From Elusimicrobiales bacterium (GTDB taxonomy: Bacteria > Elusimicrobiota > Elusimicrobia > Elusimicrobiales > UBA9959), in the NCBI GenBank assembly GCA_028713125.1, contig JAQTOU010000003.1, positions 62,001 through 126,000 of the forward strand: DNA of 64,000 nt, given 5' to 3'. The notes beneath the pieces were generated by a model, which was not told where the DNA came from, searched no databases, and saw only the letters and a list, made by a program, of their open reading frames with translations. A program made the translations under genes and the position numbers. Positions 22,321-22,749 of the stretch are shown here, piece after piece (position 1 is the first letter of the stretch; each line of letters begins with the position of its first letter).

Positions 22321-22349
22321 TTGACAAGTCAAGTTTCCTCTGTTATACT
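22321..22349 (+). promoter_or_regulatory. Near-consensus sigma-70-type promoter of the adenine-poor RNA
   Basis: Perfect -35 TTGACA (22321-22326), exactly 17 bp of spacer, and -10 TATACT (22344-22349). The start site should be about 22356. It is the best sigma-70-like promoter I found by eye in the window. Confidence 0.82.
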
Positions 22350-22355
22350 CGGAAT

Positions 22356-22749
22356 GTAGTCTTGCTCTCTTTATGCGGTTGCGCCGGTTGTGTGGTCGCG
22401 GGCCCCGCGGTGCAGTGTGGTCTGTGAGTGTGCGAAGTGTGCGCGGTGCGGTTGCGGTCGGGCCCGGGCGGTGTGCGGTCGAGCTGGTCTTGGTGCGGCA
22501 GTGGCGGTTGGGCTTCAGGGGTTTGCCCCGGCCCCGGCGCGGTTCCCCGGTCCGCTGGTCTGCTACAGGCAGGGCGGGTTTCCCGGGATCCCGGTTCGGC
22601 CCGCTTTCGGCGGCGCCCCCCGGGAGGGTGTTCCGGCCCTTCGGCTGCGGTTAGTGCGCCGTCGGTCCCCCGGTCGCCCCCAGTGTGGTTGCGGTTACTG
22701 GCCCGTGTGCCAGGTGAAGAGCCCCCGTTCATCGGGGGCTCTCGCTTTT
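22356..22749 (+). ncRNA. Unassigned adenine-depleted structured non-coding RNA, about 390 nt
   Basis: Between a near-consensus promoter and a strong terminator lies a stretch with no ribosome site and no recognisable protein. Its base use is extreme: in 22381-22680 I count 13 A in 300 bases (about 4%), while G, C and T are abundant. It can form many GC helices. Examples are CGCGG-GCC-CCGCG near 22397 and CTGGC (22698-22702) with GCCAG (22709-22713). An imperfect internal repeat, GTGCGGTTGCGGT (22446-22458) and GTGTGGTTGCGGT (22683-22695), is followed in both copies by a GGCCCG-like stretch. I find no RNase P, tmRNA, SRP or 6S signature. Open frames across it exist only because stop codons need A. 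Confidence 0.72.
22718..22749 (+). terminator. Terminator of the adenine-poor RNA
   Basis: AGAGCCCCCG and CGGGGGCTCT form a perfect 10-bp stem with a five-base TTCAT loop, then CGCTTTT. Textbook rho-independent layout. Confidence 0.9.

Follow-up and report, generated by a model that had tools for sequence, protein, structure and literature searches.

The stretch of DNA analysed here (the window, 64,000 nucleotides) contains on its plus strand a predicted non-coding RNA gene of about 394 nt (22356..22749), with 22 adenines (5.6 %). A sequence-only reading had described this place as an adenine-depleted structured RNA with its own promoter and terminator. The promoter, which that reading called perfect, is a near-consensus sigma-70 promoter matching the consensus at 11 of 12 positions: the -35 hexamer TTGACA (22321-22326) and the 17-nt spacer stand as described, whereas the -10 box is TATACT (22344..22349). 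The -35 hexamer lies within an operator-like inverted repeat, TTGAC-nn-GTCAA (TTGACAAGTCAA, 22321..22332), which is nearly invariant in the family, and the -10 box with its extended TG (CTGTTATACT) and spacer is kept across the family. Four promoter-like sites were observed per 1.4-kb region, compared to 0.6 in shuffled sequences. At the predicted transcript start lies a conserved and mostly unpaired 5' leader, GTAGTCTTGCTCTCTT (22356..22371), with the consensus GUAGUCYUGaUCUyUU across the copies.

The gene ends in an intrinsic terminator (22713..22749), and the 10-bp GC-rich stem that had been noted was found, formed by AGAGCCCCCG (22718-22727) and CGGGGGCTCT (22733-22742) around the loop TTCAT and followed by the tail CGCTTTT. 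The stem is present in 59 copies and lengthens to 14 pairs via GUGA/CGC. The internal imperfect repeat was also confirmed, with GTGCGGTTGCGGT at 22446 and GTGTGGTTGCGGT at 22683..22695; it is part of a family-wide array of GCGGU words.

The earlier count of 13 A in 22381-22680 was exact (binomial p ~3e-17 at the 21.6 % A of the window), and the estimate of about 4-6 % A over about 390 nt agrees with the composition of the whole gene. No other non-coding 300-mer of the window is as poor in A. Only one stretch contains still less adenine (895-1195), and this is the antisense of the end of a Lys/Ala-rich gene, while the remaining low-A stretches inspected look protein-coding. The gene on the minus strand at 891-1544 ends in this Lys/Ala-rich tail, histone H1-like.

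Distribution and genomic positions

A DNA search of 61 genomes, the window's own genome included, gave matches in 32. The RNA is conserved in close relatives, the family being found in 31 of the 32 genomes of the genus, and the one match outside the genus, in another family, was marginal (26 nt, E 9.5e-4). In the window's own genome the same search gave two paralogs, at C14:165613-166024 and C14:180038-180500, whose promoters are conserved, and the number of copies per genome ranges from 1 to 5. For comparison, 68 promoter-anchored places were extracted, 59 of them with a complete terminator. From the -35 box to the terminator the members measure 220-485 nt. They open with TTGACAAGTCAA or a close variant, followed by a CTGTTATACT-like -10 box and a TGTAGTCYTGaTCT-like leader, and close with a GAGCCCCC/GGGGGCTC-like terminator.

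With a covariance model built on the P4-P6 core (described below), 32 of the 341 phylum genomes searched were positive. They represent three genera of a single family, and no match among the 341 genomes fell outside that one Elusimicrobiota family. When the promoter/leader pattern was searched in about 85,000 species genomes, 51 loci were found, all on Elusimicrobia-type MAG contigs; the record titles say Elusimicrobia or Elusimicrobiales, and some merely 'bacterium'. By these genome searches the RNA family is restricted to one Elusimicrobiota family, and it provides a clear, searchable marker for a poorly studied phylum. A literature search found no description of an A-poor RNA family of this kind, and PMC11109978 does not mention Elusimicrobia.

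According to the neighbouring proteins, the copies form three main sets which occupy orthologous positions across species. The first set, to which the window's position belongs, lies downstream of a MarC/ProC/radical-SAM operon, the second downstream of a gene for a secreted protein of about 300 aa, and the third downstream of a RecQ-like helicase gene and in the same direction as it (the gene names are from sequence inspection). The conserved loci behind the same genes argue for vertical inheritance after duplication and thus against mobility. A mobile or selfish repeat could account for several copies per genome, but the three loci keep the same co-directional genes across species, and the insertion at non-orthologous sites and the linkage to mobile genes expected of such an element were not found. 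Plasmid and phage collections contained no match to the family, and two matches on viral contigs were a chance match in one AT-rich phage gene (26 % A). An unannotated protein gene might be suggested by the long reading frames, which arise because stop codons need A. However, of the 26 indels that separate close relatives only 8 have a length divisible by 3, so that the others shift the frame, substitutions have no codon phase, and most frames are broken. Both a mobile repeat and a protein gene are thus extremely improbable.

Two individual copies deserve mention. In one genome (G014:C9:63310-64587) two A-poor RNA copies stand in tandem, about 830 bases apart. The shortest complete copy (L089_2396-, G031:C129) is 220 nt from -35 to terminator; it does not have most of the P4-P6 core, retains the leader, a G/U-rich segment and the terminator, and represents a natural minimal version.

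Fold and relation to known RNA classes

The folding energy of the single sequence was not unusual compared to composition-matched shuffles (z = +0.85), as can be understood from its GC content of about 70 %. It is therefore uninformative, and the evidence for structure comes from comparing species. When the cores were pooled in one alignment, RNAalifold produced a poor fold because those of type I (window-like) and type II copies misalign; this was solved by aligning the types separately. The two resulting alignments, of type I and of type II/III, have a common architecture consisting of P1 (GCGCCGG/CCGGCGC), P2, P4, P5, P6, P7 and the terminator, the stem of which extends below its GC-rich part in both.

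In the window copy, the 5' strand of P1, UGCGCCGG (22380..22387), pairs at 8 of 8 positions with the 3' strand CCGGCGCG (22534..22541), and this helix occurs in both family types. Between the P1 strands lies a domain which varies in length from copy to copy (about 37-212 nt) and which in the window includes the fast-evolving, G/U-rich segment with the GCGGU array (22388..22517) and the P2 hairpin GGGG-TTTG-CCCC (22518..22529). The core follows, with the P4 domain (22545..22588; stem CCCCGG/CCGGG, CCGC/GCGG and apical hairpin CTGCT/GGCAG), the P5 domain (22590..22624; CCCGG/CCGGG with the inner hairpin GCCCGC/GCGGC) and the P6 domain (22626..22680; GGG/CCC, CCGG/CCGG and an inner hairpin). The P7 hairpin TGGC-CCGTGT-GCCA (22699..22712), of which TGGC/GCCA is retained in most copies, precedes the terminator.

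Compensatory changes were found in this structure. Under a tree-aware null, in which substitutions were re-placed on the tree, six helix pairs covaried significantly, i.e. 4 of 99 structural pairs in type II/III (31 sequences) and 2 of 89 in type I (24 sequences), and no pair outside the structure did so in the same alignments. Pairs of the P4 apical hairpin covary in type I (E 0.014) and in type II/III (E 0.022 and 0.0001), these E-values being approximate because the null was computed with our own script after R-scape logic. The P5 inner pair covaries between CG and GC with a score beyond every null value, and the terminator extension covaries in type II/III. Examples are the changes from C-G to A-U in the P4 apical hairpin, from C-G to G-C in P5 and from A-U to U-A at the base of the terminator.

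The absence of a known family signature that had been noted was borne out, as a covariance search with Rfam 15 gave no match even at E<=5. A divergent housekeeping RNA masked by its composition would be conceivable, since the genome has no RF00013 match and a 6S-like role is thus formally vacant. The 6S model, positive in five control genomes, matched nothing in the window or the RNA and nothing in the genome as a whole. However, 6S RNA is characterised by a rod whose large central bubble imitates an open promoter, whereas the fold P1-P7 is multi-domain, and the variable size and 1-5 copies per genome also speak against a housekeeping RNA. The RNase P RNA gene is located elsewhere (C35:117465-117850), and no tRNA or tmRNA (tRNA-like domain, tag frame) was found in the 64,000-nt window. 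With SRP RNA included among the candidates, we consider such an origin very improbable.

Conservation, paralogy and compensatory changes thus support the view that this is a gene for a structured RNA, equipped with a promoter and a terminator of its own, and 22356-22749 is very probably a member of a genuine structured ncRNA gene family, previously undescribed.

Adenine depletion

The body of the 59 copies contains 5.1 % A, 38.9 % G, 33.1 % C and 22.8 % U, with 1.5-11 % A in the individual copies. Even in unpaired columns A amounts to 5-8.5 %, compared to 35-37 % U. Structured RNAs normally depend on A for loops and tertiary contacts, and unpaired positions which are poor in A and rich in U are the opposite of what is seen in ordinary structured RNAs. 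Over its whole length, the RNase P RNA encoded in this genome contains 22.5 % A.

The 55 distinct copies have flanks of 44-69 % GC, and among them the U content of the RNA follows the AT content of the host (rho 0.62, p 4e-7), whereas the A content does not (rho 0.23, p 0.09), the p-values being approximate since the copies are related. The ratio A/(A+U) amounts to 0.21 for the RNA, compared to 0.51 for its flanks. That U follows the host composition and A does not points to selection acting against A. The bias is more than GC pressure by itself can account for, and the earlier suggestion of selection is supported by a low A content that is independent of host base composition.

A mutational by-product, i.e. 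transcription-coupled or replication bias together with GGU/GCGGU slippage and no selection on A, could also be considered, and the repeats with pentamer and hexamer spacing do resemble slippage products. Yet the scarcity of A extends to the core, which is not repetitive, and to unpaired columns, RNase P RNA from this genome is not poor in A, and with host flanks of 44-58 % GC the A content of the RNA stays low while U rises. We consider this explanation improbable. Avoidance of GGA or of Shine-Dalgarno sequences was rejected as the sole cause of the loss of A: the depletion of GGA does not exceed that of other words containing A, so that avoidance of CsrA or of Shine-Dalgarno pairing alone is not the reason. 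The conservation of a multi-helix RNA at about 5 % A, with no exception for its loops or for hosts richer in AT, suggests that A is dispensable to it and raises the question of what forbids A.

GCGGU words and candidate partners

The pentamer GCGGT occurs 445 times in the family copies compared to 104 expected from dinucleotide shuffles, and the hexamer TGCGGT 186 times compared to 19 expected. The over-representation of GCGGU is put at 3-5-fold; slippage within a G/U-rich domain of low complexity may account for part of it, and the copies, being related, are not independent of one another. The body of the window copy contains 10 GCGGT (1.9 in shuffles, p = 0.0005) and the whole RNA gene 11, with a cluster at 22443, 22448, 22454, 22468 and 22475 (22443..22479). 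In 46 copies the fast-evolving domain keeps its GCGGT density (150 observed, 30 expected). The GCGGU bases are marginally less paired than average (0.40-0.43 compared to 0.48-0.50).

The genome-wide motif counts were obtained by pattern searches. A triple-motif pattern was found in the window RNA and in one other locus, a leader of the L104 type, and nowhere else; the count of 3 equals that of the reversed-pattern control and is informative by location only. Period-5 arrays gave a single match in the genome, again in this leader. The L104-type leader (G000:C35:224438-224700, L104 and L109, with further copies L110-L127) is a second undescribed conserved leader RNA, present in about 20 genomes of the genus. 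It consists of a promoter with the operator-like inverted repeat TTGACnnGTCAA, a hairpin, a c-di-GMP-I riboswitch and the gene of a HEAT-repeat protein, in this order. The hairpin CCCGCCC..GGGCGGG is long, contains GCGGU/GYRGY words and the near-invariant GCGGTCGCAGACAGACGCGG, and is packed with GCGGT (129 in 16 copies, 18 expected). The leader has both the promoter element TTGACnnGTCAA and the word GCGGU in common with the A-poor RNA, but differs from it in forming one long hairpin scaffold, in containing 13 % A and in lying upstream of a riboswitch.

The promoter element has further occurrences. TTGACNNGTCAA was found at 13 sites of the genome compared to none for the reversed control, and precedes the three A-poor RNAs, two c-di-GMP-I riboswitch genes, clostripain-like proteases and an SLT transglycosylase. 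The sites with the inverted repeat TTGACnnGTCAA in this genome (G000) are L096-L105 and L222-L224. Judged from the genes that follow them, the TTGACnnGTCAA/TTGACNNGTCAA sites probably constitute a regulon for secreted and surface functions. At two loci (L091 and L092) the family promoter word stands upstream of a protein gene with normal A content, and the element is thus not exclusive to the A-poor RNAs. More short units of promoter, hairpin and terminator, possibly small RNAs, stand behind TTGACnnGTCAA at L224 (minus strand) and L102.

Near-total avoidance of A together with repeated GCGGU suggests an RNA that works by gripping a protein, and the presence of GCGGU in two unrelated scaffolds is our main reason for proposing a shared binder. 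We tentatively prefer the reading that the RNA works by multivalent protein binding or titration via its GCGGU words. We infer that it would act in trans: dispersed GCGGU/CGGU sites, many of them in unpaired G/U-rich segments, would hold several molecules of one G/U-recognising RNA-binding protein, and high-level synthesis from the strong promoter would titrate the protein from its targets, e.g. the L104-type GCGGU leader. Avoidance of A would keep the binding surface G/U/C-only and would exclude signals which require A, such as AUG and stop codons, Shine-Dalgarno sequences and A/U-type RNase sites.

In having its own promoter and terminator, several paralogs per genome, a structured transcript and one short word at high density, the A-poor RNA resembles CsrB/CsrC and RsmX/Y/Z of E. 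coli and Pseudomonas. It differs from them in its strong A-avoidance, its larger multi-domain fold and its lack of an Rfam match to either, and their word is GGA, in hairpin loops, instead of GCGGU/CGGU. GGA is not enriched here, with about 71 occurrences in 59 copies (about 1.2 each), and this scarcity makes CsrA an unlikely ligand. The target RNAs of TRAP (MtrB) in Bacillus likewise contain a short word with a spacing of about 5 nt. However, TRAP needs (G/U)AG triplets, to which A is essential, and a search for the TRAP gene (PF02081), positive in the Bacillus subtilis control, found none in the genome with the A-poor RNA.

Another explanation is a structured RNP scaffold of the OLE, ROOL or GOLLD sort, in which the fold is functional, the GCGGU-rich domain is a tolerant spacer and nothing is titrated. 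OLE, GOLLD, ROOL and HEARO are also long, multi-domain RNAs with their own transcription unit, unlike which the present RNA is A-poor and has no Rfam match. The large multi-domain fold with conservation and covariation at the level of domains, the variable-length domain between constant parts, and the lack of targets dispersed in the genome, one leader excepted, are consistent with a scaffold. The maintained GCGGU density in the domain least conserved in sequence, the filling of an unrelated leader RNA with the same word and the loss of most of the P4-P6 core in the smallest copy (L089, 220 nt) speak against it, and we find a scaffold rather unlikely.

A small RNA acting by base-pairing would use the leader GUAGUCYUGAUCUyUU to pair with mRNAs, possibly with those c-di-GMP-I riboswitches that have TTGACnnGTCAA in common with it, at their 3' strand. 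The leader is the most conserved segment that is largely unpaired, and its predicted duplex with the riboswitches reaches -15 to -18 kcal/mol (p 0.002-0.016 compared to shuffled leaders). However, 0.4-1.6 % of genomic 72-mers do equally well, the duplex is GU-rich, and the pairing is weak given that 11 transcripts and three leaders were tested. Moreover, size, fold, A-avoidance and the GCGGU array would all be left unexplained, and there seems little chance that base-pairing is the main function.

Returning to protein binding via GCGGU, the genome encodes two RRM proteins of 112-117 aa with Arg/Gly-rich tails, which are, by plausibility only, the best candidate partners among those seen. The FopS sRNAs, a paralogous family of Bacteroides thetaiotaomicron, bind the RRM protein RbpB; they are short, with a single-stranded 5' stretch and a terminator, and repress by base-pairing, which RbpB antagonises (PMC11697453). 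Like the A-poor RNA, FopS is a multi-copy paralogous family in a bacterium with a single-RRM protein (both found here by sequence), but we have not seen A-avoidance or a GCGGU array reported for FopS (PMC11697453). The RbpB/FopS precedent makes an RRM partner a reasonable idea, and is not evidence for binding here. The family thus brings a testable partner hypothesis, two RRM-RGG proteins and GCGGU, together with a possible link to c-di-GMP control. Speculatively, the RNA could represent a new class of regulatory RNA in bacteria, a structured transcript of 300-400 nt from which selection has all but eliminated one base so that it can act as an A-free multivalent G/U platform for an RRM-RGG-type protein, in a circuit with c-di-GMP-controlled surface and secretion genes of an uncultured lineage, although we consider this full picture unlikely. 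The two RRM-RGG genes (L225, G000:C11:653547-653756, and L226, G000:C15:43504-43713) have a conserved 5' UTR (GGTAGT..ACTCAAGTTTTTGAAGCCTAT), and the start predicted for it is similar to the first bases of the A-poor RNA (GTAGTC).
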